64,000 nucleotides of DNA from Gammaproteobacteria bacterium. Lineage in GTDB: Bacteria; Pseudomonadota; Gammaproteobacteria; Nevskiales; Nevskiaceae. Shown piece after piece: positions 21,956 through 37,770 of this stretch. The DNA is taken from positions 62,001 through 126,000 of the forward strand of contig JAPLSA010000005.1 of the NCBI GenBank assembly GCA_026398815.1, in the 5' to 3' direction. The position numbers and the translations under genes were made by a program. The notes below the pieces were generated by a model. It saw nothing but the letters and a program-made list of their open reading frames with translations, searched no databases and was not told the DNA's origin. Position 1 is the stretch's first letter; every line of letters starts with the position of its first letter.

Positions 21956-22570
21956 TCAGGCCGGCTGCAGCCGCATCAGCATCTGCACCAGCTGGGCCAG
22001 CCCGCGCGCTTCCATCTTCTGCATGATGTGGGCGCGGTGCAGCTCGACAGTGCGCTCGCTCAGGGCCAGCTCGATGGCGATCACCTTGTTGGCCGCACCG
22101 GCCACCAGCCGCCGGGCAATCTCGCGCTCGCGCGGCGTCAGGCCTTCGAAGCGGGCGCGAACCTGTTCCAGCCCGCTCAGCTGCTCGCGCAGCCGCTCGT
22201 CCTGGTCGAGCGCCTTCTGCACGCGGCGGATCAGCTCGTCGTCCTTGAACGGCTTCTGCAGGAAATCGACCGCGCCGGCGCGCATCGCCTCCACGGCCAT
22301 CGGCACGTCGCCATGACCGGTGATGAAGATCACCGGAATGCCCCAGCCGCGCCGGTTCAGTTCCTGCTGCAGCTCCAGCCCGCTCATCCGCGGCATGCGG
22401 ATGTCGAGCACCAGGCAGCCCGGCTGTTCGGGACAGTAGGCCTCGAGGAACGCGCGGGCGTCCGGAAAGCCCTGCGAACGCAGGCCGACCGAGCGCAGCA
22501 ACAGGCCGATCGAATCGCGCACCGGCTCCTCGTCATCGACGATGAAGACGCGGGTTTCGGCATCACGCAT
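21956..22570 (-). CDS. fixJ: FixJ-type response regulator
   Basis: 204 residues. The receiver domain (7-120) has the acidic pocket DDE at 12-14, phospho-acceptor Asp56 in LVLDIRMP and Lys106 in LQKPF. The LuxR-type HTH lies at about 140-200 (LTPREREIARRLVAGAANK, SERTVELHRAHIMQKM). The layout matches FixJ. The ATG lies inside the 3' end of the kinase gene (8-base overlap), so the pair is co-expressed. Predicted to be phosphorylated by the heme-PAS kinase and to act on microaerobic genes; the targets are not proven. Confidence 0.92.
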   Translation of the reverse strand: MRDAETRVFIVDDEEPVRDSIGLLLRSVGLRSQGFPDARAFLEAYCPEQPGCLVLDIRMPRMSGLELQQELNRRGWGIPVIFITGHGDVPMAVEAMRAGAVDFLQKPFKDDELIRRVQKALDQDERLREQLSGLEQVRARFEGLTPREREIARRLVAGAANKVIAIELALSERTVELHRAHIMQKMEARGLAQLVQMLMRLQPA

Positions 22571-24098
22571 CGCGGGCTTCCTCGCGGTTCATGGCGGCCG
22601 GCAGCCGCATGATGAATTCGGCGCCGCCGTCGCGGCCGGGCTGGTAGCGCAGGTCACCGTCGTGGGCGCGCATCAGCGACTTGCAGATCGACAGCCCCAG
22701 ACCCATGCCCTGTGCCTTGGTGGTGAAGAAAGGCTCGAACAGATGGTCCTCGACTTCGCGCCGCAGCCCCGGGCCGCGATCGCGGACGCGGATCTCGACA
22801 TTGCTGCCGTCGACGGCCTCGGCCAGCACCTCGATGACATCGCCCTGCGCCGCCTCGGCCATCGCCTCGATGCCGTTGCGGATCAGGTTCAGCAGCACCT
22901 GCTGGATCTGCACGCCGTCGCCGTAGACCGGCGGCAGCGGACCGTCGATCCGGGTCAGCAGCCGCCAACCGCGGGCGCGCAGCTCGAATTCCACCAGCCG
23001 CGCCACCTCGGCGATCAGCGCCGCGCAGTCCAGCGGCTCGCGTACCGCATCGCGGCGACGGGTCAGGTTGCGCAGGCCGCGGATCACCTGGCCGGCGCGT
23101 TCGGCCTGGGCGGCGATCTTGTCGAGGATGCCGGCCAGCTCGGCCGGATCGCTGTCGCCGGCCAGCACGAAGCGGCGTGCGGCATTGGCGTAGTTGGCGA
23201 TCGCGGTCAGTGGCTGGTTCACCTCGTGGGCGATGCCGCTGACCATCTCGCCGAGCGTGCCGATGCGGGCGACATGGGCCAGCCGGGTGCGCAGGTCCTC
23301 GGCCTCGCGGGTCGCCTCGAACAGCTGGCTGCGGTCGACGATCTCGCAGATCGCCAGCAGCGGCCGGCCCTCGACATCGCGGGCGACGCCGGCATGCAGC
23401 AGCGCCGGCAGCGGCCGGCCATCACCGCGCAGGTACTGGACATCGCGGCTCCAGGTCTCGCCTCGGCCGGCGATCACTTCCGACAGCGCGCCCTCGACCA
23501 GCGCCCGGTCGGCGTCGGCCAGCAGATCGCCGTGATGGCGGCCGCGCAGCGCTTCGGCATCGCGGCCGAGCAGGCTTTCGCAGGCGCGGTTGACGTCGAC
23601 GATGCGGCCTTCGGCATCGAGCAGCGCCAGCGCCGTCGGCGTCTGCTCGAAGATCAGTCGCAGCTCCTCGGTGGTCCGCCGCAGCTCGGCTTCCTGCGCC
23701 TTGCGCGCCGTGATGTCACGGAGGATGCCGACGAAGCCGTGCTCGGCGCCGCTGACGAACTCGCCGACCGACAGATCGATCGGAAACGTCGATCCATCGC
23801 GCCGCCGCGCCACCACTTCGCGGCCGATGCCGATGATCCGCCGCTGGCCGGTGCCGAGGTAGCGGCTCATGTAGCCGTCGTGCTCGTCGCGGTAGGGGCC
23901 GGGCATCAGGATCGACACCCGCTCGCCCAGCACGTCGGCCTCGCGCCAGCCGAACACCTGTTCGGCGGCCAGATTGAAGCCGGTGATGCGGCCTTCGCGG
24001 TCGATCAGCACGATCGGATCGACGGCGGCCGCGAACAGCGCGCCGAACCGGTCCCCGGAAATGGGGCCGCTGCTGGGGCGTGCGGAAGGGCTGGACAT
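22563..24098 (-). CDS. fixL: FixL-type heme-PAS sensor histidine kinase
   Basis: 511 residues. The first PAS (15-140) is FixL-like: His73 in DEHDGYMSRY aligns with the heme ligand and Arg93 in IIGIGRE, 20 residues on, with the FixL gating Arg (His200/Arg220 in Bradyrhizobium). A second PAS (about 145-260) lacks these residues. The HisKA H-box is GIAHEVNQPLTAIANY. The HATPase has N, G1 and G2 boxes (LIRNGIEAM, DRGPGL, GLGLSICKSL). No transmembrane segment is visible, unlike S. meliloti FixL, so it is soluble. ATG 24098 chosen: the FNR box at 24154-24167 lies upstream and would otherwise be coding. Confidence 0.9.
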   Translation of the reverse strand: MSSPSARPSSGPISGDRFGALFAAAVDPIVLIDREGRITGFNLAAEQVFGWREADVLGERVSILMPGPYRDEHDGYMSRYLGTGQRRIIGIGREVVARRRDGSTFPIDLSVGEFVSGAEHGFVGILRDITARKAQEAELRRTTEELRLIFEQTPTALALLDAEGRIVDVNRACESLLGRDAEALRGRHHGDLLADADRALVEGALSEVIAGRGETWSRDVQYLRGDGRPLPALLHAGVARDVEGRPLLAICEIVDRSQLFEATREAEDLRTRLAHVARIGTLGEMVSGIAHEVNQPLTAIANYANAARRFVLAGDSDPAELAGILDKIAAQAERAGQVIRGLRNLTRRRDAVREPLDCAALIAEVARLVEFELRARGWRLLTRIDGPLPPVYGDGVQIQQVLLNLIRNGIEAMAEAAQGDVIEVLAEAVDGSNVEIRVRDRGPGLRREVEDHLFEPFFTTKAQGMGLGLSICKSLMRAHDGDLRYQPGRDGGAEFIMRLPAAMNREEARDA

Positions 24099-24153
24099 GG
24101 TCGCGACGGCGGCGGCGGTGGGCAGGCGGTAACCGCTGCGGATTGTAGCCACC

Positions 24154-24167
24154 TTGATCCAGGTCAA
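24154..24167. promoter_or_regulatory. FNR/Anr box between fixL and desaturase gene
   Basis: TTGATCCAGGTCAA matches the FNR consensus TTGATN4ATCAA in all but one base. Its centre is about 62 bases from the fixL ATG and 59 from the desaturase ATG. If used at -41.5, both transcripts would get 5' leaders of about 20 bases. The same 14-mer recurs at 27142 and 34691. Confidence 0.8.
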
Positions 24168-24219
24168 GGCCCTGCCGGCGCCGGCAGTCCTCACTGTCGT
24201 CCCCTGCCGAGGACTGACC

Positions 24220-25191
24220 ATGATCCCTTGCTGTCGCCCCACTGCCTTCGCCGCCCAGCTCGACGTGCTGGCCGCCGCCACTCCCGCGATCACGGCCCTG
24301 ATCGACCGCCATCTCGCCAGCTGCCACGAGTGGTGGCCGGGCGAGCTGGTCGACTTCGGCGACGATCCGCAGCTAGCGGCGCTGGGCGCGTTGCGCGACC
24401 GTGCGCGCGGCCTGCCGTCGGCGGTGAAGGTGTCGGTGATGCTGAACCTGCTGACCGAGGAAGGACTGCCGCACTTCCACCGGATCATTGCCGAGCACGT
24501 CGGCAGCCAGGCGATCTGGCAGCGCTGGACCCGGCTGTGGACTGCCGAGGAAGACCGCCACGGCAATGTGCTGCGCGACTACGCCCGCGACGCCGCGCTG
24601 TACGCGCCGGCCGCGCTCGACCGCCTGCAGTTCGGCTTCCTGCGTGACGGCTTCGATCCCGAATGGGCCGGCAGCCCGTACCGGCTGCTGGCCTACACCA
24701 GCCTGCAGGAGCGGGCCACGCAGATCTCGCACGCCAATACCGCGCGGCTGGCCGCCGCCCACGAACCGCTGCTGCAGACGGTACTGGCCCGGCTGGCCGG
24801 CGACGAAGCGCGCCACTGCGCGTTCTATCGCGATGCCTTCGCGCTGGCGCTGGCCGCCGATCCCGACGCCGCGCTGCTGGAACTGGCCGATGTGGCGCCG
24901 GTGCTGTCGATGCCGGGCAGCACCATCATGGGTTTTCAGATGATGGCCGAGGTCGAACGCCAGGCCGGCGTCTTCGGCCCCCGCCAGTACGCCGCGCTGG
25001 TCGACGAATCGCTGAACCACTGGGGCATCGCCAGCATCGAGCCGCACGGCGGCGAAGCGCGGCGCGCCCGCGATCGGCTGATGGCGCTGCCGGCGCGGCT
25101 CGATGCGCTGGCCGGGCGGCTGGAGCAGCGCCGGCACCTGAAGACCTACGTTTTCGATTTCCTGCGGCCGCCGCTGGCGGCGCTCGCCTGA
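24220..25191 (+). CDS. Acyl-ACP desaturase (soluble diiron type)
   Basis: 323 residues. Introduces a double bond into acyl-ACP using O2 and a diiron centre. Ligand motifs: LTEEGLPHFHR (Glu80/81), AEEDRHGN (Glu110/Glu111 with His114) and GDEARHCAF (the second E/DExxH) near residue 200. These match the plant/actinobacterial stearoyl-ACP desaturase family (FA_desaturase_2). ATG 24220 was chosen; an in-frame TTG at 24154 is the first base of an FNR box and is rejected. Divergent from fixL. Under predicted FNR control, it may adjust membrane lipids when oxygen falls. Confidence 0.88.
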   Translation: MIPCCRPTAFAAQLDVLAAATPAITALIDRHLASCHEWWPGELVDFGDDPQLAALGALRDRARGLPSAVKVSVMLNLLTEEGLPHFHRIIAEHVGSQAIWQRWTRLWTAEEDRHGNVLRDYARDAALYAPAALDRLQFGFLRDGFDPEWAGSPYRLLAYTSLQERATQISHANTARLAAAHEPLLQTVLARLAGDEARHCAFYRDAFALALAADPDAALLELADVAPVLSMPGSTIMGFQMMAEVERQAGVFGPRQYAALVDESLNHWGIASIEPHGGEARRARDRLMALPARLDALAGRLEQRRHLKTYVFDFLRPPLAALA

Positions 25192-25223
25192 GGCCGGCAT
25201 CGAACGGAAGGCAACTGAAACGG

Positions 25224-25253
25224 CACCGCCGCGCCGATCAGGGCGCGGCGGTG
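25224..25253. terminator. Hairpin between convergent desaturase and ompW genes
   Basis: CACCGCCGCGCC (25224-25235) pairs with GGCGCGGCGGTG (25242-25253). It sits between two convergent stops. No T-tract is present, so the termination role is tentative. Confidence 0.45.
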
Positions 25254-25271
25254 GCTTGCAGAGCAGCCGGA

Positions 25272-25883
25272 TCAGAAGCGGTACGAAACCGTGGCACCGT
25301 AGGCCAGCGGATTGATCCTGACCTTGCCGATCGGCGCGCCGTCGACGCTGGCATCCGGCTCGATCTGCAGATAGCGCAGGTCGGCACCGATGGCCCAGTC
25401 GGCATTGAAGTGCCAGTCCACACCCAGCTGCGCGGCAACCCCCCAGGTGTTCGACAGCTGCAGCCGCGCGCCGGGCAGCGCTTCACGGAAGAACAGCGTG
25501 CGATTGACGCCGATGCCGATGTAGGGATCGACGCGGCCATCGGCCAGCGGGTGGTATTGCAGGCCGAGCACCGGCGGCAGGTGCTGGGTCGAGGCCACGC
25601 GGCTGCCGTTGATGGCGATGCCCTGGGTGACCGGCAGCGCCGCCAGCAGGTCGAGGCTCAGCTGCCGGCAGATCCGGTAGTCGACATTGAAGGTCACCGC
25701 CGCCTTGCTGCGCACCGTGATGTCGCCGGCCGCCGTGTCGTTGTGGCCCCCGACCGGATCGACGACATGGCCGCCAAGCCGCAGCGACCACGGACGGGCC
25801 TCGTCGAAGCAAGCGGCGTGGCTGGCGATCGGCGTCAGCAGCAGGGCGCTGGCGAGCAGCGGAAGCAGGGTCTTGGCAGTCAT
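25272..25883 (-). CDS. ompW: OmpW-family outer membrane protein
   Basis: 203 residues from ATG 25883. The signal peptide is LLPLLASALLLTPIASHA. The mature part resembles OmpW: WSLRLGGHVVDPVGG, LPPVLGLQYHPL, YIGIGVNRTLFF, VAAQLGVDWHFNADWAIGAD and a terminal Phe (YGATVSYRF), consistent with an eight-stranded barrel. OmpW/OprG proteins are often raised in low oxygen under FNR/Anr; an FNR-like box lies 70 bases upstream. Confidence 0.85.
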   Translation of the reverse strand: MTAKTLLPLLASALLLTPIASHAACFDEARPWSLRLGGHVVDPVGGHNDTAAGDITVRSKAAVTFNVDYRICRQLSLDLLAALPVTQGIAINGSRVASTQHLPPVLGLQYHPLADGRVDPYIGIGVNRTLFFREALPGARLQLSNTWGVAAQLGVDWHFNADWAIGADLRYLQIEPDASVDGAPIGKVRINPLAYGATVSYRF

Positions 25884-25952
25884 GGTCGGGGTCTTCGGAC
25901 AGGCATCGGACTGATGTCGAAGCCATCGTCGCCGCCGGCCGTCACGGCGGCC

Positions 25953-25966
25953 TTGACCCTGGTCAT
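25953..25966 (-). promoter_or_regulatory. FNR-like box upstream of ompW
   Basis: TTGACCCTGGTCAT has the TTGAC-N4-GTCA layout, weaker than the other three boxes. Its centre is 77 bases from the ompW ATG; placed at -41.5 it would give a 35-base leader. Confidence 0.5.
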
Positions 25967-26007
25967 TGCAAGCGTGAAACGGCCTGCGGGCACGCCGATC
26001 GCAGACC

Positions 26008-26033
26008 AAAAAAAGGCGGCCACGCGGGCCGCC
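26008..26033 (-). terminator. Rho-independent terminator after the usp gene
   Basis: On the minus strand GGCGGCC-CGCGT-GGCCGCC is followed by seven T residues (A-run 26008-26014). It lies 55 bases after the stress-protein stop. Confidence 0.85.
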
Positions 26034-26087
26034 GAATCGCTGGATGGCCGCAGGGTCGGCCATCGAGGGGAGAACGTCTTTGGCGGC

Positions 26088-27080
26088 TCAGGCCACCGAG
26101 TCGGAACGATGGCGGCCGAGCGGCAGGCGCCGCTCGCGCTTCGGGCGCGCTTCGGAGGCCAGATCGAAATCGGCCGGCTTGATCAGCAGCACGTCGCAGC
26201 TCAGCCGCCGCAGCAGGGCCTCGGCAGTGGAGCCGAACAGCAGGCGATCGATCGCCGGGTGGTAGGTGGAGCCGATCACCACGAGATCGATCGCGTTCTG
26301 CGCGGCCAGCGTGGCGATGCCATCGGCCGGTTCCAGCCGCCGGGTGCGCAGCACCTGCTCCGGCCGCAGCTGGTGGCGGCTGGCGAAGCGCTTCAGCTGC
26401 TCGGCGTGGGCGCCGTCCATCAGTTCCCAGGTGTTGGCGATGAAGCCGGCGTCGTAGCTGCCGAGCGGCAGGCAGGAGAACACCGAGCCGAGATGCAGGC
26501 TGCTGCTGTCGCCGACCAGGCAGGCGCGCGCGGCGTCCAGCAGCTGATCGTTGAGCCCACCGGCCGCGCCGTTGATCGTGACATCGACCGCCGCCATCAC
26601 CCGGCGCGGCTCCAGCGCCGAGCGCGGATGCACCAGCATCAGCGGCGCGGCGGCCATACGGATCAGCTTCCAGTCGACGCTCGACGGCCGCAGGCGGCCG
26701 GCTTCGGCGTCGGTGACCGGTTCGCAGTCGATGTCCTTGATCACCAGATCCGGCCGCAGCGCCCGGATGCGCGCGACGATCGCCCGGGCCGGATCGCGTG
26801 CCCAGCTGACATCGCATTCCACGCGCAAGCCGTTGTCGGCCAGGCCGCTGGCGACGTCGGCCAGCGCCTTCATGCGCTCGTCGAGGAAATCGCGGCGCGC
26901 CCGGTCGGCGACTTCGACGCCGAACACGGTGCCGGCGTAGTCGATCGGCTCGTAGTGATCGAAGATTTCCAGATGCAGCGTCGCACCGCTGCGGTGGGCA
27001 TAGGCCATCGCCCGGTGCAGCGCCGGGCCCGGACGGGCGTCGGGGGCCATCAGCACCAGGATGGTTCGCAGCGTGTTCAT
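26088..27080 (-). CDS. Tandem universal stress protein (UspE-like)
   Basis: 330 residues from ATG 27080 (MNTLRTILVLMAPDARPG). Two Usp domains, about 1-155 and 160-300. The second ends with the nucleotide-binding stretch VVIGSTYHPAIDRLLFGSTAEALL, where G-x2-x9-G-S/T is recognisable. Domain one has DLVIKDIDCEPV instead and appears degenerate. Divergent from ccoN across an FNR box, as with Anr-controlled usp genes in Pseudomonas. Likely supports survival under oxygen limitation. Confidence 0.85.
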   Translation of the reverse strand: MNTLRTILVLMAPDARPGPALHRAMAYAHRSGATLHLEIFDHYEPIDYAGTVFGVEVADRARRDFLDERMKALADVASGLADNGLRVECDVSWARDPARAIVARIRALRPDLVIKDIDCEPVTDAEAGRLRPSSVDWKLIRMAAAPLMLVHPRSALEPRRVMAAVDVTINGAAGGLNDQLLDAARACLVGDSSSLHLGSVFSCLPLGSYDAGFIANTWELMDGAHAEQLKRFASRHQLRPEQVLRTRRLEPADGIATLAAQNAIDLVVIGSTYHPAIDRLLFGSTAEALLRRLSCDVLLIKPADFDLASEARPKRERRLPLGRHRSDSVA

Positions 27081-27141
27081 CGGGCAGCACCGGTTGCGGA
27101 TTTCGATGGCTTGAGTTTCAGCATCCGAGGCCAGCGGCGCG

Positions 27142-27155
27142 TTGATCCAGGTCAA
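27142..27155. promoter_or_regulatory. FNR/Anr box between usp and ccoN
   Basis: TTGATCCAGGTCAA, identical to the boxes at 24154 and 34691. The centre is 62.5 bases from the ccoN ATG (27211) and 68.5 from the usp ATG (27080), positions suited to activation of both divergent genes. Confidence 0.85.
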
Positions 27156-27210
27156 AGCGGTGGCGATGCCTGAAGCCGATCCTGCACGCCATCAACGCAG
27201 GGGATCGGCC

Positions 27211-28665
27211 ATGGCAGACGACAGCGGCACCGCAGCACCAGCAATTCAATACGAGGACCGGGCCGTTCGCGGCTTTGCCGTGATGACCGTGGTCTGGGGG
27301 ATCGTCGGCATGACGGTCGGCGTCTGGCTGGCCGCCCAGCTGATGTGGCCGGCGCTGAACTTCGACACGCCGTGGCTGACCTACAGCCGCCTGCGGCCGC
27401 TGCACACCAATGCGGTGATCTTCGCGTTCGGCGGCAGCGCCCTGTTCGCCTCCAGCTACTGGTGCGTGCAGCGCACCTGTCGCACCGCACTGTTCCTGCC
27501 GAAGCTCGCCAACTTCACATTCTGGGGCTGGATGCTGGTCATCGTGCTGGCCGCCATCACCCTGCCGCTGGGCATCACCCAGAGCAAGGAGTACGCCGAA
27601 CTGGAGTGGCCGATCGACATCTTGATCGCCATCGTCTGGGTCGCCTACGGCGTGGTGTTCTTCGGCACCATCGCGAAAAGAACGGTCAGCCACATCTACG
27701 TGGCGAACTGGTTCTTCGGCGCTTTCATCATCGCCGTGGCGCTGCTGCACATCGTCAACAGCGTGGCGATCCCGATCAGCTGGACCAAGTCCTACTCCGC
27801 CTACAGCGGCGCGACCGATGCGATGGTGCAGTGGTGGTACGGCCACAACGCGGTGGGCTTCTTCCTGACCGCCGGCTTCCTCGGGATGATGTACTACTTC
27901 GTGCCCAAGCAGGTCGGCAAGCCGATCTACTCGTACCGTCTGTCGATCGTCCACTTCTGGGCGCTGATCGCGGTCTACATGTGGGCCGGCCCGCATCACC
28001 TCCACTACACCGCGCTGCCGGACTGGGTGCAGTCGATCGGCATGGTGTTCTCGCTGATCCTGCTGGCGCCGAGCTGGGGCGGCATGATCAATGGCGTGAT
28101 GACGCTCAGCGGTGCCTGGCACAAGCTGCGCGAAGACCCGATCCTGAAGTTCCTGATCGTCTCGCTGAGCTTTTACGGCATGTCGACCTTCGAAGGTCCG
28201 ATGATGTCGATCAAGACCGTCAACGCGCTCAGCCACTACACCGACTGGGGCATCGGCCACGTGCATTCCGGCGCGCTCGGCTGGGTGGCGATGATCTCCA
28301 TCGGCTCGATGTACGCGCTGATTCCGCGCGCCTTCAACCGGCCGGCGATGCACTCCATTCCGGCGATCAACCTGCATTTCTGGATGTCCACCGTCGGCAC
28401 CGTGATGTACATCACCGCGATGTGGAGCGCCGGCCTGATGCAGGGCCTGATGTGGAGAGCCACCGAGGCGGACGGCACGCTGACCTACAGCTTCGTCGAA
28501 TCGCTGAAGGCCACCTACCCGTTCTACGCCGTGCGCCTGGCCGGTGGCCTGATGTTCCTCGGCGGCATGCTGGTGATGGCCTGGAACGTCTGGAAGACCC
28601 TCGCCCGACCGGCCGAGCACGTCCCCACCCTTGTCGCCGCGCCGGCCCAGGAGTCGCACGCATGA
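27211..28665 (+). CDS. ccoN: cbb3-type cytochrome c oxidase subunit I
   Basis: 484 residues. Catalytic subunit of the high-affinity cbb3 terminal oxidase. His65 in [10 protein letters not shown] is a low-spin heme b ligand. [11 protein letters not shown] and [16 protein letters not shown] carry the CuB ligands. [18 protein letters not shown] carries heme ligands in helix X. About twelve hydrophobic helices are visible. ATG 27211 has GGGGAT upstream; an in-frame TTG at 27142 falls on the FNR box and is rejected. First gene of the ccoNOQP-G-x-I-S operon. Confidence 0.97.
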
Positions 28666-29291
28666 AACACGAATTCATCGAGAAGAACGTCGGCTGGCTG
28701 GCGGTGCTGACGGCGGTCGCGATCAGCTTCGGCGGCCTGGCGGAGATCGTGCCGCTGATGAACGACAAGGCCACCGTCACCGCCGAACCCGGCATGCCGA
28801 TGCGCAGCGCGCTGGAAGTGGCCGGCCGCGACGTCTACATCCGCGAAGGCTGCTACGGCTGCCATTCGCAGATGGTTCGCACCCTGGCCGAAGAAGTGCT
28901 GCGCTACGGCCCGGCGTCGACGGCCGGTGAATCGGTCTGGGATCACCCGTTCCAATGGGGCTCCAAGCGCACCGGGCCGGACCTGGCCCGGGTCGGCGGC
29001 CGCTACAACGACGAATGGCATCGCATCCACCTGAACAACCCGCGCGACGTGGTGCCGGAATCGAACATGCCGGGTTATCCCTGGCTGGCCGAGGAAGGCT
29101 TCGAGCCCGGCGAGGTGCCGGCGATGATGCGGGCACTGAAAACCGTCGGCGTGCCGTTCGACGACGCCGCGATCGCCAGGGCCGATGCCGATGTCGCCGG
29201 CAAGACCAAGGCCGATGCGGTGATCGCCTTCCTGCAGTCGCTCAAGTTCCCGAAGCCGGCTGCGGTCGCCAGCGTGGAGGCCCGGCCATGA
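28662..29291 (+). CDS. ccoO: cbb3-type cytochrome c oxidase subunit II
   Basis: 209 residues. Membrane-anchored monoheme cytochrome c. The TM anchor is at 10-31, the heme motif is CYGCH (C64, C67, H68), and the Met ligand is probably in [13 protein letters not shown] overlaps the ccoN stop by four bases. Confidence 0.97.
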
Positions 29292-29470
29292 TCAGCGGCC
29301 TGTTCACCCTGGCTGCCATCGGCAGCTTCATCGGCGTCTGCTGGTGGGCCTCGGCCCGCCGCAACGCCGCCCGTTTCGACGAGGCCGCCCAGCTGCCGCT
29401 GGTCGACGAGCCCGCCACCGTCAAGGCCGCGCCGGCACCCGCCTGCTGCTGCCGGGAGTCGCAGTCATGA
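29288..29470 (+). CDS. ccoQ: cbb3 oxidase small subunit CcoQ
   Basis: 60 residues with one TM helix (LFTLAAIGSFIGVCWWA) followed by an Arg-rich turn and the LPLVDE motif seen in CcoQ/FixQ. CcoQ stabilises the CcoP-core complex. ATGA overlaps on both sides. The C-terminus is unusual in ending with a Cys cluster (PACCCRES). Confidence 0.9.
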   Translation: MISGLFTLAAIGSFIGVCWWASARRNAARFDEAAQLPLVDEPATVKAAPAPACCCRESQS

Positions 29471-30357
29471 GTCCGTTCTGGAGTGCTTTCGTCATCGTGA
29501 TCTCGGTGGCGATGATGGTCGCCTGCCTGTGGCTCCTGTTCGCCAACGCCAAGGGCGTGCCCGGCCAGACCAACGAGCACGTCTGGGACGACGACCTGCG
29601 CGAGTACAACAACCCGCTGCCGCGCTGGTGGCTGAACCTGTTCGTGCTGACCGTGCTGTTCGCCGCCGGCTACCTGGCGTTCTATCCGGGGCTCGGCAAC
29701 CTGTCCGGCCGGCTCGGCTGGACCTCGCGCGGCCAGATGGAAAGCGATCTCGCGCGCATCACCGCCAGCCGCCACGCGGCGTTCAAGGCGCTGGACGGCA
29801 AGTCGATCCCGGAGCTGGCACAGGACCCGGCGGCGCTGTCGCTGGGCCGCGCGGTGTTCATGGCCAACTGCGCCGGCTGCCACGGCGCCGACGCCCAAGG
29901 CGCGATCGGCTTTCCGAACCTGACCGACGCCGACTGGAAGTTCGGCGGTACGCCGGAAGCCATCGTCGCCAGCATCAGCCACGGCCGCACCGCGGTGATG
30001 CCGCCGCTGAACGGCACGCTGTCGGCGCAGGAGCTGCAGGATCTGGTCGACTTCGTGCCGTTCTGGTCGGACGACACGCTGCCGGCCCGCAAGCGCGAGG
30101 CCGGCCTGAAGCAGTTCGCCGCCCGCTGCTCCGGCTGCCACGGCGCCGATGGCCGCGGCCTCACCGCGCTCGGCAGCCCGAACCTGACCGACGACATCTG
30201 GCTCTACGGCGGCGGTCGCGAAAAGGTGCGGCAGGCCATCCTGTTCGGCCGCAGCGGCCAGATGCCGGCGCACGAGCAGCTGCTGGATGCCGACGAGATC
30301 CGCGTCGTCGTCGCCTGGGTCTACGGCCAGTCGACCCACGACGGCGCCGCCCGGTGA
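29467..30357 (+). CDS. ccoP: cbb3-type cytochrome c oxidase subunit III (diheme)
   Basis: 296 residues. Two N-terminal TM helices (about 5-27, 57-74) joined by the CcoP-typical HVWDDDLREYNNPLPRWW. There are two cytochrome c domains: CAGCH (C135, C138, H139) and CSGCH (C221, C224, H225). Electron entry subunit of the oxidase. Overlaps ccoQ and the next gene by four bases each. Confidence 0.97.
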   Translation: MSPFWSAFVIVISVAMMVACLWLLFANAKGVPGQTNEHVWDDDLREYNNPLPRWWLNLFVLTVLFAAGYLAFYPGLGNLSGRLGWTSRGQMESDLARITASRHAAFKALDGKSIPELAQDPAALSLGRAVFMANCAGCHGADAQGAIGFPNLTDADWKFGGTPEAIVASISHGRTAVMPPLNGTLSAQELQDLVDFVPFWSDDTLPARKREAGLKQFAARCSGCHGADGRGLTALGSPNLTDDIWLYGGGREKVRQAILFGRSGQMPAHEQLLDADEIRVVVAWVYGQSTHDGAAR

Positions 30358-30599: not shown

Positions 30600-32030
30600 G
30601 TGTCCTGCAAGGAGAAGGCGGCATTCGAGCGGCGCTCGGCTGCGGCCAAGCCGGCGGTCACCGAATCGGTGCTGATGTATCAGGCGTCGACCAAGATCCA
30701 GTCGCGCAGCGCCCATGGCCGCTACGCGCGCCTGCGGGTGATCGCGACCGTAGCGCTGCTCGGCCTGTACTACCTCGTGCCCTGGCTGAGCTGGCACGGC
30801 CAGCCGCTGGTGCTGTTCGATCTGCCGCACCGGCGCTTCCACATCCTCGGCCTGACCCTGGTGCCGCAGGACCTGCTGCTGCTGACCGCGCTGCTGCTGC
30901 TGGCGGCGCTGACCTTGTTCCTGTTCACCTCGCTGGCCGGCCGGCTGTGGTGTGGCTACGCCTGCCCGCAGACGGTCTGGACCGAAGCCTTCCTGTGGAT
31001 CGAGCAGGCTTTCGAAGGCGACCGCCACCAGCGGCTGCGGCTGGATCGCGCGCCGTGGCGTGGCGAGAAGCTGCTCAAACGGGGCGGCAAGCACCTGGCC
31101 TGGGCGCTGTTCGGCCTGTTCACCGGCTTGAGCTTCGTCGCCTATTTCGTGCCGGCCCGCGAACTGTTCCCGGCCCTGCTGGCCGGAACCTTGAGCGGCT
31201 GGGCGCTGTTCTGGTCGCTGTTCTACGGTTTTGCGACCTGGGGCAATGCCGGCTTCATGCGCGAACAGGTCTGCAAGTACATGTGTCCGTACGCGCGCTT
31301 CCAGAGCGCGATGTTCGACCGCGACACGCTGATCATTGCCTACGACGACAAGCGCGGCGAGCCGCGCAAGGACGCCCGCAGCAAGGGGGCCACCGGCGGC
31401 GACTGCGTGTCCTGCACGCTGTGCGTGCAGGTCTGCCCGGTCGGTATCGATATCCGCGACGGCCTGCAGTACGAGTGCATTGCCTGCGCCGCCTGCATCG
31501 ACGCCTGCGATTCGGTGATGACCAGCGTCGGCAAGCCACGCGGCCTGCTCCGCTACACCAGCGCCAACCGCGATGCCGGCAAGCCGTTCCGCCTGCTGCG
31601 GCCGCGCACGCTCGGCTATGGCGCGGTCTGGCTGGCGGCCTGCGCCGGCTTCATCGCGCTGCTGGCCCTGCATTCGCCGCTGCGCTTCGATGTGCTGCGC
31701 GACCGCCACGCGCTGTACCGCGAGCTGGCCAGCGGCGAGATCGAGAACGTCTACACGCTGAAGCTCAGCGACACCGCCGACCAGCCGCGCCACTACCAGC
31801 TCAGCGCCCGCTTTGCCGATGGCGAAGCCCTGGTGATCGCGCCGTCGACCTTCACCCACCAGCCGGGCGAAGCCGGCACCGCGACCATCGCGCTGCGCGC
31901 CGCAGCGCGTGACGACGGGAAGCCGTCACGGCGGCCGGTGGAAACCGTGGCCATCGAATTGCAGGACCTCGACCAGCCGGGCATTCACGCCCGCCGCAAC
32001 GCCCGATTCCTGACAGGAGCCCAGCACTGA
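30600..32030 (+). CDS. ccoG: cbb3 oxidase accessory protein CcoG (FixG/RdxA)
   Basis: 476 residues from GTG 30600. Polyferredoxin-like inner-membrane protein implicated in copper/redox handling during cbb3 assembly. It has several TM helices, the CGYACPQTVW motif and an MCPYARFQSAM segment. Two 4Fe-4S motifs are CVSCTLCVQVCPVGIDIRDG and CIACAACIDACD. The C-terminal periplasmic Ig-like domain ends at RFLTGAQH. Complete length for the family. Confidence 0.95.
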   Translation: MSCKEKAAFERRSAAAKPAVTESVLMYQASTKIQSRSAHGRYARLRVIATVALLGLYYLVPWLSWHGQPLVLFDLPHRRFHILGLTLVPQDLLLLTALLLLAALTLFLFTSLAGRLWCGYACPQTVWTEAFLWIEQAFEGDRHQRLRLDRAPWRGEKLLKRGGKHLAWALFGLFTGLSFVAYFVPARELFPALLAGTLSGWALFWSLFYGFATWGNAGFMREQVCKYMCPYARFQSAMFDRDTLIIAYDDKRGEPRKDARSKGATGGDCVSCTLCVQVCPVGIDIRDGLQYECIACAACIDACDSVMTSVGKPRGLLRYTSANRDAGKPFRLLRPRTLGYGAVWLAACAGFIALLALHSPLRFDVLRDRHALYRELASGEIENVYTLKLSDTADQPRHYQLSARFADGEALVIAPSTFTHQPGEAGTATIALRAAARDDGKPSRRPVETVAIELQDLDQPGIHARRNARFLTGAQH

Positions 32031-32251
32031 TGAACACCGTCACCCCCACTCGCCCCAACGTCGACGACAGCGCCCGCCTCGCTCGCCGGCGCATGTCGCT
32101 GGAAGTCTTCCTGCTGTTCGGCCTGCCGGTGATGTCGATCGCCGCTTGCGCCGTGCTGGCCTTCGTCGCCTATGCCCAGGGCTATACCGAGATCGCCAGC
32201 CATCCGACCGCCAGCGGTACCGTGGCGGCTGCGCCGGCCCGTCATCCCTGA
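32030..32251 (+). CDS. Single-pass membrane protein at the ccoH position
   Basis: 73 residues with one TM helix (VFLLFGLPVMSIAACAVLAFVA). The ATG shares a base with the ccoG stop (TGATG). In other cbb3 clusters the ccoG-ccoI gap holds ccoH/fixH (about 150 residues). This protein is half that length and keeps only the N-terminal TM type, so it may be a reduced CcoH or an unrelated replacement. Confidence 0.6.
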   Translation: MNTVTPTRPNVDDSARLARRRMSLEVFLLFGLPVMSIAACAVLAFVAYAQGYTEIASHPTASGTVAAAPARHP

Positions 32252-32296
32252 AGCCCGACGCCGACCGTCGCGCCCAACGCTACCGCACCGCCGCCC

Positions 32297-34546
32297 ATGA
32301 CCGATCGCGACTGGACCCTCTACGACCGCGCCGACCTGCGCGGCGGCTTCGCCCGGCCCCGCGCCGGCGGCTACGAGGTGACGGTGGCGCTCGATGGCAT
32401 GCACTGCGCCGCCTGCGCCGCGCGCGCCGAGAAAGCGGTGGCCGCCGGCGCCCGCGAAGTCGCCGTCAATGTCGCCACCCGCAGCCTGCGCTTCCGCTAC
32501 GACCCGGCGGCGACGCCGCTGTCCGGGCTGCTGGCGGCGCTCGATCGCAGCGGCCTCGAGCCGCGCCTGCTGGCCAGCGCCGATGGCGGCGAACGCGCCC
32601 GCCGCGCGCAGCGCCTGAGCCTGGCGCGGATTGGCGTCGCCACCATCTGCGCGATGCAGGTGATGATGCTGGCCTGGCCGAGCTATTTCGGCATCGACAG
32701 CGGGCCGGACATCGAGCCGCTGCTGCGCACGGCGCAGCTGCTGCTGTCGATTCCCGGCGTGCTGTGGGCCGGCTGGCCGTTCCTGTCGGCCGCCTGGCGC
32801 AGCCTGCGCGATGGGCAGCTGGACATGAACGTGCCGGTGGCGCTGGCGCTGCTGGCCGCGTTCATCGCATCCGCAGTGCGGACCGCGCTCGGCAGCGGCG
32901 AGCTGTATTTCGACACCGCGACGATGTTCGTCTGGTTCCTGCTGATCGGCCGGCAGCTGGAGGGCCGCAGCCGCGACAAGGCCAGCGAGCACCTGCGCCT
33001 GTTGGCCAGCCGTCGGGCGCTGACCGCGCAGCGCCGCGTCGGCCCGGTGGTCGAAACGATCGCCATCGATGCGCTGGCAGTCGGCGACATCGCCATCGTC
33101 GCGCCCGGTGACAGCCTGCCGGCCGATGGCCGGTTGCTCGACCTGCCGGCCGAACTCGACGAGGCGCTGCTCAGCGGCGAATCGCGGCCGGTGCTGCATG
33201 CAGTCGGCGATCGCCTGCTGGCCGGCAGCCTGAACCTCGGCAGCAGCGCGCTGGCGCTGCAGGTGGAGCGGCTCGGCGACGACACCGTGCTGGCGCAGAT
33301 CGCCGGGCTGCTCGACAACGCCGGCCACGCCAAGCCGCGCGTGCAGCGGATCGCCGATCGCATCGCGGCCCATTTCATCGCGGCGGTGCTGGTGCTGGCC
33401 GCCGTCGGCGCCACGCTGGCGCTGTACCGGGGTGCCGGCGGCGAAACCGCCTTCGGCATCGCGCTGGCGGTGCTGGTCGCGTCCTGTCCCTGCGCGCTGT
33501 CGCTGGCGGTGCCGGTGGCGCTGGCGGCCGGCAGCTCGCGGCTGGCGAAGCAGGGCGTGCTGGTCGCCAATGCCGGCGCGCTGAGCGCGCTGGCCGGCAT
33601 CGACACCGTGCTGTTCGACAAGACCGGCACGCTGACCCGCAACGCGCTGCTGTTGCGGCAGGTGCTGCCGCTGGCCGACGTCACCACCGGCCTGGATGCT
33701 GACGCCGTCACCCGCATCGCCGCCGCGCTGGAGCGCGGCAGCCGGCATCCGATCGCCAGCGCCTTCGCCGACCACGACCGCGGCCTGCCGGCGCAGCAGG
33801 TCCGCCAGCTTGCCGGCGCCGGCATCGAAGGCCGGGTCGACGGCCGCGCCTGCTGGCTCGGCGCGCTCGACGCCAGCCCGATGGCGATCGCAGTGCCGGC
33901 GGCGGCCGAGCTGTGCGCCGACGACACCGTGATCGCGCTGGTCGTCGACGGCGTGGCCGCCGCGCTGTTCGTGCTGGCCGCCCGCGTGCGCGAGGAATCG
34001 GCCACCGTCGTCGGCGATCTTGAACAGCGCGGCCTGCGCTTGGAACTGCTCAGCGGCGACGGCGCAACGGCCGTCGCGGCGATGGCTGCGCGGCTCGGCA
34101 TCGCCCGCCATGCCGCGCGCCAGACGCCGGCCGGCAAGCTGGCCCATCTGCAGGCGCTGCAGGCGGCCGGTCACCGCGTGCTGGCCGTCGGCGATGGCCT
34201 CAACGATGCGCCGCTGCTGGCCGCCGCCGACGTTTCCGCCGCGATGCCGAACGGCGCTGCGCTGACCCAGTCGCGCGCCGACCTGCTGCTGCTCGGCGAT
34301 TCGCTGGCCGGGCTGCCACTGGCGCTGTCGGTGGCGCACGACACGCGGCGACGAATCCGCGAGAACCTCGGCTGGGCGCTGGGCTACAACCTGCTGGTGC
34401 TGCCGCTGGCGATGACCGGCCAGCTGCCGCCGTGGCTGGCCGCCGCCGGCATGTCGCTGTCCTCGCTGCTGGTGGTGCTCAATGCCCAGCGCGGCGGCGC
34501 GGGCCCAACCCCACCCATGCCGCCGATGCGGCCGGTGCTGCCATGA
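32297..34546 (+). CDS. ccoI: Copper-exporting P1B-type ATPase CcoI
   Basis: 749 residues. Supplies copper for the CuB centre. The N-terminal metal-binding domain has GMHCAAC (Cys37, Cys40). The TM Cys-Pro-Cys is in ASCPCALSLAV (about 396-399). Phosphorylation is at DKTGTLT (about 441), the HP locus at SRHPIASA, and GDGLNDAP at about 632. Complete. Its stop overlaps the ccoS start by four bases. Confidence 0.95.
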   Translation: MTDRDWTLYDRADLRGGFARPRAGGYEVTVALDGMHCAACAARAEKAVAAGAREVAVNVATRSLRFRYDPAATPLSGLLAALDRSGLEPRLLASADGGERARRAQRLSLARIGVATICAMQVMMLAWPSYFGIDSGPDIEPLLRTAQLLLSIPGVLWAGWPFLSAAWRSLRDGQLDMNVPVALALLAAFIASAVRTALGSGELYFDTATMFVWFLLIGRQLEGRSRDKASEHLRLLASRRALTAQRRVGPVVETIAIDALAVGDIAIVAPGDSLPADGRLLDLPAELDEALLSGESRPVLHAVGDRLLAGSLNLGSSALALQVERLGDDTVLAQIAGLLDNAGHAKPRVQRIADRIAAHFIAAVLVLAAVGATLALYRGAGGETAFGIALAVLVASCPCALSLAVPVALAAGSSRLAKQGVLVANAGALSALAGIDTVLFDKTGTLTRNALLLRQVLPLADVTTGLDADAVTRIAAALERGSRHPIASAFADHDRGLPAQQVRQLAGAGIEGRVDGRACWLGALDASPMAIAVPAAAELCADDTVIALVVDGVAAALFVLAARVREESATVVGDLEQRGLRLELLSGDGATAVAAMAARLGIARHAARQTPAGKLAHLQALQAAGHRVLAVGDGLNDAPLLAAADVSAAMPNGAALTQSRADLLLLGDSLAGLPLALSVAHDTRRRIRENLGWALGYNLLVLPLAMTGQLPPWLAAAGMSLSSLLVVLNAQRGGAGPTPPMPPMRPVLP

Positions 34547-34683
34547 CCAGTCTCTACCTGCTGATTCCGCTTGGCGTCGTTGTCGTCTTCGGCGCCATCG
34601 CCGTATTCCTGGTCGCGGTGTTCGGCGGCCAGTTCGAACGGCTCGACGAGCAGGCCCGCCGGCTGCCGGACGACGAACGCTGA
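34543..34683 (+). CDS. ccoS: cbb3 oxidase maturation protein CcoS
   Basis: 46 residues: one TM helix (LYLLIPLGVVVVFGAIAVFLV) followed by FGGQFERLDEQARRLPDDE, the usual CcoS pattern. Needed for cofactor insertion into CcoN in other bacteria. Last gene of the cco operon; an FNR box begins seven bases after its stop. Confidence 0.93.
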   Translation: MTSLYLLIPLGVVVVFGAIAVFLVAVFGGQFERLDEQARRLPDDER

Positions 34684-34690
34684 GCGGGGC

Positions 34691-34704
34691 TTGATCCAGG
34701 TCAA
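34691..34704 (+). promoter_or_regulatory. FNR/Anr box upstream of the safE-like/hemN pair
   Basis: TTGATCCAGGTCAA, the third exact copy. It sits right after ccoS, 100 bases before the next ATG, so the safE-like and hemN genes likely have their own oxygen-controlled promoter. Confidence 0.8.
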
Positions 34705-34803
34705 GGCGACTGTCGTCGCCGCCGCCGACACTGGCGGCATGATCCAGCGCCTGCCCTCGCCACTGCGGTCGTCCGCCCGCTGCACCCCGGGCCAGGTACG
34801 GCC

Positions 34804-35484
34804 ATGAACGGCTTGCCGGTCACCGTTCTCGGCACGCCTGCGCTGCTGCTGGCCGGCGCCGCCGCCAGTGTTCATTGCGTGGCGATGTGCGGCGCGCTGT
34901 CTGCCCAGCAGGCGCGTGCCGCTGGCGCGCTGCCGATCGGCCGCGCACTGGCGCTACTGCACGGCGGACGGCTGCTCGGCTATGCCGCATTCGGCGCCGT
35001 GGCCGGCGGCATCGGCCAGCAGCTGCTGCGCCACCTGCCCGATCCCGCGCTGGGTCGCCTGCTGCAGTTGCTGGCGGCGGCGCTGCTGGTGGCGATCGGC
35101 GCCTCGCTGCTGCTGCGCCCGGCGGCAGGCGCGGCCTGCTGCCGGCCGTCCCTGCAAGCGCCGCGACGTGGCGCTGCAGCAGCGCTGCTGCTGCGCGGCG
35201 TCGCCTGGGCGGCGCTGCCCTGCGGTCTGCTCTATTCGGTGCTGCTGCTGGCGGCGCTGTCTGGTCGCGCCGTCGATGGCGCGCTGCTGGCCGGCGCCTT
35301 CGCGCTCGGCGGCACGCCGCTGCTGGCGCTGGTCGGCTGGCGCAGCCGGGCCCTCTGGCCACGTCGCCGCAGCGGCTGGTGGCTGGTGGCGATCGGCCTG
35401 CTGAGTCTGGCCGCCACCGTTTTCGTTCCTTCCGATCCGCTGCGCAGCTGGTGCGCCGCGCCTGCCCCGGTGTCTGCCTCATGA
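34804..35484 (+). CDS. TauE/SafE-family membrane protein linked to cbb3 genes
   Basis: 226 residues, six or so hydrophobic helices. The N-terminal SVHCVAMCGALSA (H-x3-MCG) and the repeated LPCGLLYS motif are typical of the TauE/SafE-like (UreH-type) proteins commonly found next to cco genes and hemN. Suggested roles include metal or sulfur transport; none is proven. Its stop overlaps hemN by four bases. Confidence 0.85.
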   Translation: MNGLPVTVLGTPALLLAGAAASVHCVAMCGALSAQQARAAGALPIGRALALLHGGRLLGYAAFGAVAGGIGQQLLRHLPDPALGRLLQLLAAALLVAIGASLLLRPAAGAACCRPSLQAPRRGAAAALLLRGVAWAALPCGLLYSVLLLAALSGRAVDGALLAGAFALGGTPLLALVGWRSRALWPRRRSGWWLVAIGLLSLAATVFVPSDPLRSWCAAPAPVSAS

Positions 35485-36905
35485 GCCACGCCCGTCCGCT
35501 GTCGCCGCTGCCGTCCGCCGAGCTGATCCGCCGCCACGACGGCAACGGCCCGCGCTACACCTCCTACCCGACGGCGATGCAGTTCACGCCGGCCCATGGC
35601 GCCGCCGAACACGCCGCTGCGACGCAGCGCAGCGCGGCGGCGATCGGCGCACCGCTGTCGCTGTACGTGCATGTGCCGTTCTGCGAAAGCCCGTGCTTCT
35701 ACTGCGGCTGCAACCGGGTCATCACCCGCGATCACGCGCTCGGCGATGCCTATGTCGAGCGCCTGATCCGCGAAGCCGCGCTGCAGGCCGCGCTGTTGCC
35801 GGGCCGGCCGAGCGTCGAGCAGCTGCACTTCGGCGGCGGCACGCCGACTTTCCTGTCGATCGCCCAGCTGCAGCGGCTGCTCGACGGGCTCGATGCGCAC
35901 TTCCATCTGGCCCGCGATGCCGGCCGCGAGTACTCGATCGAGATCGATCCGCGCTCGATCACGCCGGCCACGCTGGCCGAACTGGCGCGGCTCGGCTTCA
36001 ACCGCGCCAGCTTCGGCATCCAGGATTTCGATGCGGCCGTGCAGGACGCGATCAATCGCCGCCAGGCCTATGCCGAAGTCGCCGCACTGATCGAGGCGGC
36101 CCGCGCTGCCGGCTTCGAATCCTTGTCGGCCGATCTGATCTACGGCCTGCCGAAGCAGACGACCGCCGGCTTCGCGCGCACGCTCGATCAGGTGATCGCG
36201 CTGCGCCCGGACCGCATCTCGACCTACGCTTACGCGCACGTGCCGGAGCGCTTCAAGGCGCAGCGGCAGATCCGCCTCGACGAGCTGCCCGATGGCGAAA
36301 CCCGGCTGGCGCTGCTGAACCTGTCGATCGAGCGGCTGCTGGCCGCCGGCTACCAGTACATCGGCATGGATCACTTCGCGCTGCCGCAGGACGAGCTGGC
36401 CCGCGCGCTGCGCGATGGCAGCCTGCAACGCAATTTCCAGGGCTATGCGACCCGCGCCGGGCTGGACCTGATCGGCCTCGGCGTCAGTGCCATTTCCAGC
36501 ATCGGCGACAGCTACGGCCAGAACGCCCGCAACCTGGCCGACTGGAATGCCGCGATCGACGCCGGCCGGCTGGCGATCGATCGCGGTCTGCTGTTGACGG
36601 CGGAAGACCGGCTGCGCCGCGATGTCATCGCCGCGCTGATGTGCGAGGGACGGCTGCGCTTTGCCGACATAGAGGCCGTGCATCGGATCGACTTCCGCCG
36701 CCATTTCGTCGCCGAACTGGCGCGCTTCGATGCGATGGCGGCGGACGGCCTGGTGGTGATCGACCACAGCGGCATCACCGTGACGCCGACCGGCCGCTAC
36801 CTGCTGCGGGCCATCGCCATGCCGTTCGATGCCTATCTGTCGCCGGCCGCCACGGCAGTGGCTGCACCGGCCGTGTCGACGGCGCGCTACTCGCGGCTGA
36901 TCTGA
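35481..36905 (+). CDS. hemN: Oxygen-independent coproporphyrinogen III oxidase
   Basis: 474 residues. Radical-SAM enzyme that makes protoporphyrinogen IX without O2 for heme synthesis. The cluster motif is CESPCFYCGC (Cx3Cx2C). GGGTPTFL is the SAM glycine motif, with RASFGIQDF, YGLPKQT and a C-terminal HemN domain. YTSYPTAMQF at the N-terminus is typical of true HemN rather than HemW. Follows the FNR box through the coupled safE-like gene. Confidence 0.96.
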   Translation: MSHARPLSPLPSAELIRRHDGNGPRYTSYPTAMQFTPAHGAAEHAAATQRSAAAIGAPLSLYVHVPFCESPCFYCGCNRVITRDHALGDAYVERLIREAALQAALLPGRPSVEQLHFGGGTPTFLSIAQLQRLLDGLDAHFHLARDAGREYSIEIDPRSITPATLAELARLGFNRASFGIQDFDAAVQDAINRRQAYAEVAALIEAARAAGFESLSADLIYGLPKQTTAGFARTLDQVIALRPDRISTYAYAHVPERFKAQRQIRLDELPDGETRLALLNLSIERLLAAGYQYIGMDHFALPQDELARALRDGSLQRNFQGYATRAGLDLIGLGVSAISSIGDSYGQNARNLADWNAAIDAGRLAIDRGLLLTAEDRLRRDVIAALMCEGRLRFADIEAVHRIDFRRHFVAELARFDAMAADGLVVIDHSGITVTPTGRYLLRAIAMPFDAYLSPAATAVAAPAVSTARYSRLI

Positions 36906-36929
36906 GTGGTATCGACCGCGACCGGCACG

Positions 36930-36953
36930 AAAAAGCCGGCCCCAGGGCCGGCT
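36930..36953 (-). terminator. Rho-independent terminator of the fnr gene
   Basis: AGCCGGCCC/GGGCCGGCT-type stem with a 3-4 base loop, followed on the minus strand by five T residues (A-run 36930-36934). It lies between convergent hemN and fnr. Confidence 0.8.
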
Positions 36954-36975
36954 CGGTTGCCGCAAAGTCCGGCGC

Positions 36976-37770
36976 TCAGGCCGCCCGCCGGATGGTCCCC
37001 TGGATCGGGCGCGGGATCGCCGGAACATCCAGACCGACCGGTGCCGCTGCCGCACGCAGCGCGGCCTCGTCGAGCAGCTTCAGACCGCGCTCGGTGGCCT
37101 GCAGCCAGCCCTTCTGCTCGAAGCGCTTCAGGCTGCGGCAGACGGTTTCATTGGCCAGCCGCAGGTAGTTGCCGACATCACGCTGGGCCATCGGCAGCCG
37201 CAGGCAGCCGCTGAGCCCGAGGCCGATGCGGTCGCGCAGCTGCAGCAGGAACGCGGCCAGCCGCTGTTCGGCGGTGTAGTCGCCGGCAATGGCCAGCGAC
37301 ATCGCCAGTTCCCGGCTGGTCTGCTCCATGACCCGCATCGCCACCATCGGCATGCGGCCCATCAGCCCCTGCAGCTCGGCCAGCGGTGCGACGCAGACCT
37401 GCGACGGCACCACCGCCACGGCCGTCGACAGGCAGACACCGCCGCCGATGGCGTCGAGGCCGATCAGATCGCCCGGGAAATAGAAGCCGCGAATCCGCTC
37501 GTGGCCGGCGACATCGACGGTATAGGTCTTCACGCAGCCGCCGCGCACCGAGTACAGCGCGTCCAGCCGGTCGCCCGCGCGCTGCAGCGCGCCGTCGCCG
37601 GGCATCAGTGCCTGGCGCGGCGCCAGCATGTCGCTCCAGGCCTGAGCCTGATCGCCGCCATCGCGGTGGACGAGGCAGCTGCGCACCGGGCACAGCAGGC
37701 AGTCGGTCTTCAGGGTCGGGGCGGCGGCTTCGGCGGTCATGGCGGTCACGGTGCTGGGAACTGCCGCCAT
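36976..37770 (-). CDS. fnr: FNR/Anr-family oxygen-sensing regulator
   Basis: 264 residues (ATG 37770; ATG 37740 is also possible, and neither has a clear ribosome site). Cluster cysteines C24, C27, C32 and C126 (in VCVAPL) align with the four FNR ligands, but the N-terminal spacing is Cx2Cx4C, one residue shorter than the FNR Cx2Cx5C. The cNMP-like barrel (80-140) has FYFPGDLIGLDAIGGG. The HTH has DVGNYLRLANETVCRSLKRF: recognition residues Glu208 and Arg212 are kept, while the usual Ser is Cys211. Likely acts on the TTGAT boxes at 24154, 27142 and 34691. Confidence 0.9.
   Translation of the reverse strand: MAAVPSTVTAMTAEAAAPTLKTDCLLCPVRSCLVHRDGGDQAQAWSDMLAPRQALMPGDGALQRAGDRLDALYSVRGGCVKTYTVDVAGHERIRGFYFPGDLIGLDAIGGGVCLSTAVAVVPSQVCVAPLAELQGLMGRMPMVAMRVMEQTSRELAMSLAIAGDYTAEQRLAAFLLQLRDRIGLGLSGCLRLPMAQRDVGNYLRLANETVCRSLKRFEQKGWLQATERGLKLLDEAALRAAAAPVGLDVPAIPRPIQGTIRRAA

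Follow-up and report, generated by a model that had tools for sequence, protein, structure and literature searches.

A putative FixJ site before an iron-sulfur-type fnr gene suggests two oxygen sensors in series in Nevskiales

How is oxygen control arranged when a FixL-FixJ pair, an FNR regulator, and a cbb3 oxidase operon lie together in a gammaproteobacterial genome? The question is raised by a block of about 16 kb (positions 21956-37770) on contig JAPLSA010000005.1 of the Nevskiales assembly GCA_026398815.1. Positions are those of the window, which is the whole stretch of 64,000 nt that was analysed, from a 4.3 Mb genome that is 95.6 % complete. The genome is assigned to Nevskiales on the strength of named matches in Nevskia, Solimonas, Stagnimonas, Sinimarinibacterium, and Panacagrimonas. 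The block holds fixJ, fixL, three FNR boxes, the cbb3 operon, hemN, and fnr, and the identity and order of these parts are certain. The original prediction was a Rhizobium-style FixLJ-FNR circuit around a complete cbb3 island. It overlooked a conserved FixJ-type box before fnr, and the circuit is not peculiar to this genome, since FixL was found in 37 of the 85 Nevskiales genomes surveyed. I consider it likely, from sequence comparison, that FixL-FixJ directly drives the synthesis of a [4Fe-4S] FNR and that FNR drives cbb3; that is, two O2 sensors would act in series with no FixK between them. The genes and sites on which this reading turns are the following.

21956-22570, minus strand: fixJ, response regulator with a receiver and a LuxR-type DNA-binding domain (Pfam Response_reg and GerE)
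22563-24098, minus strand: fixL, kinase with a heme-PAS, a second PAS, HisKA (H291), and an ATPase domain; overlaps fixJ by 8 bp
36976-37770, minus strand: fnr, CRP/FNR regulator with four cluster cysteines
37796-37813, minus strand: second conserved element of the fnr promoter
37820-37834, minus strand: FixJ-type box TACGTAGTTCCCGCA, 64 bp upstream of the fnr start

A FixJ-type box upstream of fnr

The box TACGTAGTTCCCGCA before fnr is the only match to a degenerate FixJ-type pattern in this genome. FixJ motifs from in vitro selection (GTAGTTTCCC and GTAMGTAG) and the motif ahead of Sinorhizobium meliloti fixK (TAAGTAATTTCCCTTA) are given in the accessible part of a published study (PMC4999443). 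In the S. meliloti fixK region, TAAGTAGTTCCCCTTA was found at -85, and a sequence starting with TAAGTA lies 82-86 bp upstream of the fixK start in S. meliloti, S. medicae, S. fredii, and Rhizobium gallicum. Is the box common in Nevskiales? The degenerate pattern TAVGTASTTNCCGCA has 23 matches in the 85 genomes, one of them in this genome. As many as 21 are correctly oriented sites immediately before an fnr-like gene, and the other two lie at one place in genome G028. At that place (contig C526, loci L125 and L136), two box-like sites face each other as a near-palindrome in a 3 kb locus without an fnr-like gene; no fnr-like match was found in G028 at all.

A search at 1e-14 gave 74 fnr-like matches in 52 of the 85 genomes, and all 74 upstream sequences were examined. 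A box with at most three mismatches lies ahead of 40 of the 74 genes, 45-93 bp from a start position that was extrapolated from the alignment, while mononucleotide-shuffled upstream sequences reached this level in 17 of 3700 cases. The box precedes an fnr-like gene in 34 of 36 genomes with FixL versus 1 of 16 in which FixL was not found (Fisher p = 4.6e-10, a value that is too small because the test assumes independent genomes and these are related). The exceptional box carrier, G020, has neither a FixL nor a CcoN match. G064, a FixL-bearing genome without the standard box, has a rhizobial-looking TAGGTATTTTCCCCTA at -42.

These counts depend on how FixL was called. Matches to the first PAS domain (PAS1) fall into two groups, at least 121.8 bits (36 genomes) and at most 91.7 bits; G024 was added as FixL-bearing because its kinase part matches at 1e-134 and the copy (L051) is apparently cut by a contig end. 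The threshold was revised after the boxes were known, guided by this gap. With the first threshold (1e-60), four pattern-bearing genomes had no FixL, and a FixL was later found in three of them: in G015, where a contig end truncates it, and in G005 and G006, where it has one PAS. The fourth is G020. Five more box-bearing genomes (G007, G008, G010, G066, and G067) gained a FixL below the first threshold.

In ten of the genomes with FixL, fnr-like genes are present in two or more copies. The box stands before every copy in G005, G006, and G016 and before two of the three copies in G025, while seven extra copies lack it (L170, L171, L172, L174, L175, L186, and L200). Outside Nevskiales, at a locus labelled Pseudomonadales (L065), fixLJ is accompanied by an fnr-like gene that has a CxxCx5C arrangement and is preceded by the box TAGGTAGTTACCGCA.

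The second promoter element reads approximately CGG.AA followed by CGRAT; at 34 of the 40 sites, it is separated from the box start by 33-34 bp. In S. medicae, S. meliloti, and R. gallicum, a similar element, CCGAATTT or CCCAATTT, stands at a distance of 25 bp. The two elements thus seem related in make-up and different in spacing. Taken as a predicted site, the FixJ-to-fnr link has strong comparative support across the order.

The FixL and FixJ proteins

The heme His (H73) and the gating Arg (R93) of FixL, with the predicted spacing of 20 residues, were confirmed: PAS1 aligns without gaps to crystal structures of FixL (chains 1dp6 and 1d06, both with 115.6 bits, versus 47.6 bits for DosP) and is 50 % identical to the PAS domain of S. 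medicae FixL. The pocket residues His73, Arg79 (+6), Ile88/Ile89 (+15/+16), and Arg93 (+20) are kept, and their roles are presumably those assigned in Bradyrhizobium FixL. Both the heme His and the Arg 20 residues further on are retained in each of the 23 compared loci whose FixJ falls inside the Nevskiales clade described below. A second PAS sits between PAS1 and the kinase part. The kinase had been predicted to be soluble, and indeed no membrane-type segment was found (the maximal 19-residue Kyte-Doolittle mean is 1.2, versus 2.7 in CcoG). The expected O2 chemistry of FixL, like that of FNR, is read from conserved residues. Heme PAS domains bind several gases, so that this one may sense NO, CO, or the redox state instead of O2. 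The conserved FixL pocket pattern and the co-occurrence of FixL with a high-affinity oxidase make this improbable: ccoN is present in 35 of 37 genomes with FixL versus 6 of 48 without (p = 2.6e-15, too small because the genomes are related). An fnr-like gene is present in 36 of 37 versus 16 of 48.

Some FixL proteins, of Solimonas and other genomes, have a single PAS ahead of the kinase (L063, L068, L070, L071, G005, and G006); it appears that the second PAS is lost or gained among these proteins. In a FixL-like PAS1 of Povalibacter (L059), Gln replaces the heme His, which other Steroidobacter-type rows keep. Is this possibly a natural heme-less form? In an even sample of the class, FixL-type PAS domains were found at 1e-25 in 98 of 370 genomes, and many of these domains lie in long multidomain frames. 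All 27 class-wide loci examined (L251-L277) keep the His and the Arg, and eight of the 27 have a FixJ-like match of at least 120 bits within 1.5 kb flanks.

FixJ has its phospho-acceptor at D56, by alignment. It matches the FixJ structure 5xso with 177.2 bits and 1yio, which I take to be StyR, with 179.5 bits. Could FixLJ have other targets, and the box before fnr be read by a different regulator that travels with the island? The comparably high score of FixJ against 1yio would fit such a case, as would G020 with its box and no FixL, and the pairing of the site with FixJ is a prediction from sequence. Still, this alternative has a low probability. Across 52 genomes the box goes with FixL, and it is similar to the published FixJ motifs; it is present here despite a distance of 14 kb between fnr and fixLJ; and this protein and S. 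medicae FixJ have the recognition stretch RTVExHRA in common.

In a FixJ tree of 52 rows, there is support of 100/99 both for a group of the nine alphaproteobacterial rows and for a single clade of the Nevskiales rows, which contains no alphaproteobacterial row. The tree is rooted at the midpoint, where long branches meet, and speaks only against a recent transfer from rhizobia. The guanine plus cytosine content of the island (0.704) is close to that of the adjacent DNA (0.697 and 0.682). On these two grounds, recent transfer from rhizobia was rejected as the origin. The gene content is similar to that of a rhizobial fix island, and one such island might have entered a single gammaproteobacterium; given the separate clades, the spread of FixL over the order, and the base composition, this is very improbable. 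FixJ proteins on contigs labelled Verrucomicrobia (L036) and Klebsiella pneumoniae (L048) also fall within the Nevskiales clade, and these organism labels are probably wrong.

The FNR protein and its cluster cysteines

FNR has a CRP/FNR fold with a helix-turn-helix and cluster cysteines at C24, C27, C32, and C126. The genome has one other match to it at E values up to 10, with 17 bits. All 40 box-preceded regulators have cysteines at these four positions, and the N-terminal spacing, CxxCx4C here, is x4 or x5 among them. In contrast, CxxC is absent, by eye, from four rhizobial FixKs (S. meliloti, S. medicae, S. fredii, and R. gallicum). If FixK is defined as a FixJ-controlled CRP/FNR regulator without cluster cysteines, the box fits that definition, while the cysteines set these proteins apart from it. 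Thus, the box-preceded regulator of Nevskiales could be an iron-sulfur-type FNR that senses O2 itself, and FixJ in Nevskiales appears to act on a potentially O2-sensing FNR.

It might be argued that the system is an ordinary alphaproteobacterial FixLJ-FixK cascade, in which the regulator called FNR here is merely a FixK. The gene set overlaps with those of Sinorhizobium and R. gallicum regions, and in rhizobia a comparable FixJ site stands about as far from the regulator gene. The cysteine counts, together with the supported separation of the nine alphaproteobacterial FixJ rows from the Nevskiales clade, make it unlikely.

The recognition helix shows a further variation. Residue C211, which presumably corresponds to S212 of Escherichia coli FNR, is Cys (ETVCR) in 23 of the 40 box-preceded regulators and Ser in the other 17. 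In Bradyrhizobium diazoefficiens FixK2, a DNA-contacting Cys confers oxidation sensitivity, according to the accessible part of PMC9104804. That Cys is probably at another position than C211, and a second redox switch in FNR is possible.

FNR boxes and the cbb3 island

The remaining features of the block are the following.

24154-24167: FNR box TTGATCCAGGTCAA in the fixL/desaturase intergenic region, 69 and 66 bp from the respective starts
24220-25191, plus strand: FA_desaturase_2 protein of the acyl-ACP desaturase type (Pfam 247.7 bits), divergent from fixL
25272-25883, minus strand: OmpW-family outer membrane protein
26088-27080, minus strand: universal stress protein, usp (Pfam Usp), divergent from ccoN; nearest NCBIfam model UspE, 98.2 bits, below the cut-off of 227
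27142-27155: FNR box TTGATCCAGGTCAA in the usp/ccoN intergenic region
27211-28665, plus strand: ccoN, cbb3 oxidase subunit I (TIGR00780, 726.8 bits, above cut-off)
28662-29291, plus strand: ccoO (Pfam FixO)
29288-29470, plus strand: ccoQ (Pfam FixQ weak, 26.1 bits, below the cut-off of 29)
29467-30357, plus strand: ccoP (Pfam FixP_N and Cytochrome_CBB3)
30600-32030, plus strand: ccoG (TIGR02745, 488.7 bits, above cut-off); alternative start ATG at 30675
32030-32251, plus strand: open reading frame of 73 amino acids at the ccoH position, without a Pfam match (E 0.1)
32297-34546, plus strand: ccoI, copper-type P-type ATPase
34543-34683, plus strand: ccoS (Pfam FixS, 43.3 bits)
34691-34704: FNR box TTGATCCAGGTCAA ahead of the DsbD_2-hemN pair
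34804-35484, plus strand: DsbD_2-type membrane protein
35481-36905, plus strand: hemN, oxygen-independent coproporphyrinogen III oxidase (TIGR00538, 518.9 bits, above cut-off)

The run reads ccoN-O-Q-P-G-orf-I-S, followed by the DsbD_2-type gene and hemN. The island had been called complete; every gene of ccoNOQP and ccoGHIS was found, ccoQ weakly, except ccoH, whose position is taken by the 73-amino-acid frame. The three identical FNR boxes of the original prediction were recovered (TTGATCCAGGTCAA at 24154, 27142, and 34691), as was the FNR protein with its four cysteines. The pattern TTGAYNNNNRTCAA occurs at eight places genome-wide, three of them inside the block, versus three for the reversed control.

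Of 13 loci tested, including that of this genome, 10 have an FNR box before ccoN with no more than one mismatch, and 12 have one with no more than two. Random stretches of the window gave 13 and 232 of 3950, respectively. The FNR-to-cco link is accordingly a motif-based prediction. A box (at most one mismatch) less than 100 bp from fixL is seen in only 3 of 23 loci: this genome (L006), L034, and L035. In L038, L041, and L042, a box lies 150-246 bp from fixL; in L045, the distance is 72 bp and the box has two mismatches. The original prediction placed fixL behind an FNR box, took this to suggest a feedback loop, and called for a survey of related genomes. The box is present here; its rarity near fixL suggests that the loop is probably a local addition. 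Among the loci compared, only those of the Nevskia subclade have the box close to fixL, while the link to fnr is order-wide.

The desaturase, which shares its FNR box with fixL, adjoins fixL only in this genome, L007, and L034 among the compared loci. Desaturases of the FA_desaturase_2 type need O2. At another of the eight places in this genome, the FNR box TTGACCCAGGTCAA lies 75 bp before a gene that resembles, by eye, a hemerythrin gene (L282; G000 C15:113910-113923) and is possibly a further FNR target.

The proposed circuit

Several results weigh against a FixJ-to-FNR circuit. The pattern TAVGTASTTNCCGCA read backwards has 22 matches in the same 85 genomes, so that the placement of the 23 forward matches is informative while their number is not unusual. 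Of the 16 fnr-bearing genomes without FixL, 14 belong to other families (f4 and f6), whose FNR may be another orthologue; thus, the contrast between genomes with and without FixL is partly phylogenetic. Within family f1, the only informative FixL-lacking genomes are G003, without a box, and G020, with one. G059 has fixL adjoining fnr and yet no box. The rhizobial two-element spacing, tested on Nevskiales promoters, did not agree (25 versus 33-34 bp). All three proteins score below the cut-offs of their NCBIfam models: FixJ with 232.7 bits (NF006900, cut-off 255), FixL with 330.8 bits (rhizobial FixL model NF041777, cut-off 850), and FNR with 120.5 bits (Fnr model NF008365, cut-off 228).

A FixJ-driven FNR is nevertheless the reading that I prefer, and the circuit would work as follows. 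Judging from the conserved residues, FixL would bind O2 at the heme held by His73, and FixJ would become phosphorylated as O2 falls. Comparative evidence suggests that phosphorylated FixJ then binds TACGTAGTTCCCGCA upstream of fnr, and more FNR would be made. The new FNR would be active only at still lower O2, once its [4Fe-4S] cluster persists. On the evidence of the motifs, FNR dimers on the three boxes would induce ccoNOQP-GIS, usp-ompW, and hemN and, in the Nevskia subclade, also fixLJ and the divergent desaturase; the box before fixLJ would close a positive loop. In short, a heme sensor may set the amount of an iron-sulfur sensor, which gates the output.

How did this arrangement arise? 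Tentatively, direct action of FixJ on a [4Fe-4S] fnr may have come first and been retained in gammaproteobacteria; the FixLJ-FixK cascade of rhizobia would be derived from it by cluster loss in the target, and the Nevskia subclade would later have added the FNR box before fixLJ, giving the positive loop. This order of events is possible, though I consider it less likely than not. It makes the origin of FixLJ-FixK testable: was an iron-sulfur FNR the first target of FixJ, which became FixK by a later loss of its cluster? If the positive loop of the Nevskia subclade is real, it could switch hysteretically. The FixJ-site model is usable for annotation across the order.

Comparison with known systems

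In gammaproteobacteria, FNR/ANR controls cbb3, hemN, ompW-type, and usp genes, and the FNR boxes found here lie before the same kinds of genes. Gammaproteobacterial fnr/anr genes are not known to be under FixLJ. Among the open-access titles and abstract openings listed, there was no case of FixLJ control of gammaproteobacterial fnr/anr; a FixJ-to-FNR wiring was not described there, which is weak evidence of absence, and the listed matches named no FixL in Nevskiales genera.

The original prediction regarded alphaproteobacteria as the home of FixLJ. However, FixLJ has already been reported outside them, in Burkholderia (PMC5234846). As far as the accessible parts of two reports go, FixLJ of the Burkholderia cepacia complex induces a fixK reporter at low O2, while the S. 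meliloti fixK promoter gave no induction of its reporter, and the Burkholderia FixL has transmembrane domains (PMC5234846, PMC8406202), unlike the FixL described here.

With the FixLJ-FixK cascades of Sinorhizobium, Bradyrhizobium, and Caulobacter, the Nevskiales system shares a heme-PAS kinase FixL, FixJ, and a FixJ site before a CRP/FNR gene and, with Sinorhizobium and R. gallicum, overlapping neighbour genes (usp, ompW, hemN, or cco). It differs in that the target regulator keeps the [4Fe-4S] cysteines, that FixL consists of heme-PAS, PAS, and kinase without a membrane segment, and that the second promoter element is 33-34 bp rather than 25 bp away. This comparison suggests that the circuit is a variant of the FixLJ-FixK cascade, in which the distinctive link would be the FixJ box directly before a [4Fe-4S]-type fnr.

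The closest parallel is the pathway from hFixL-FxkR-FixK to FnrN in Rhizobium leguminosarum, in which, according to the accessible part of PMC7888657, a heme sensor primes the synthesis of an iron-sulfur sensor within one pathway, as is proposed here. In R. leguminosarum, FxkR and an intermediate FixK stand between the two sensors, whereas FixJ apparently acts directly on fnr in Nevskiales. The results suggest a compact series wiring of two unrelated oxygen sensors in gammaproteobacteria, shorter than the version from nitrogen-fixing root bacteria.

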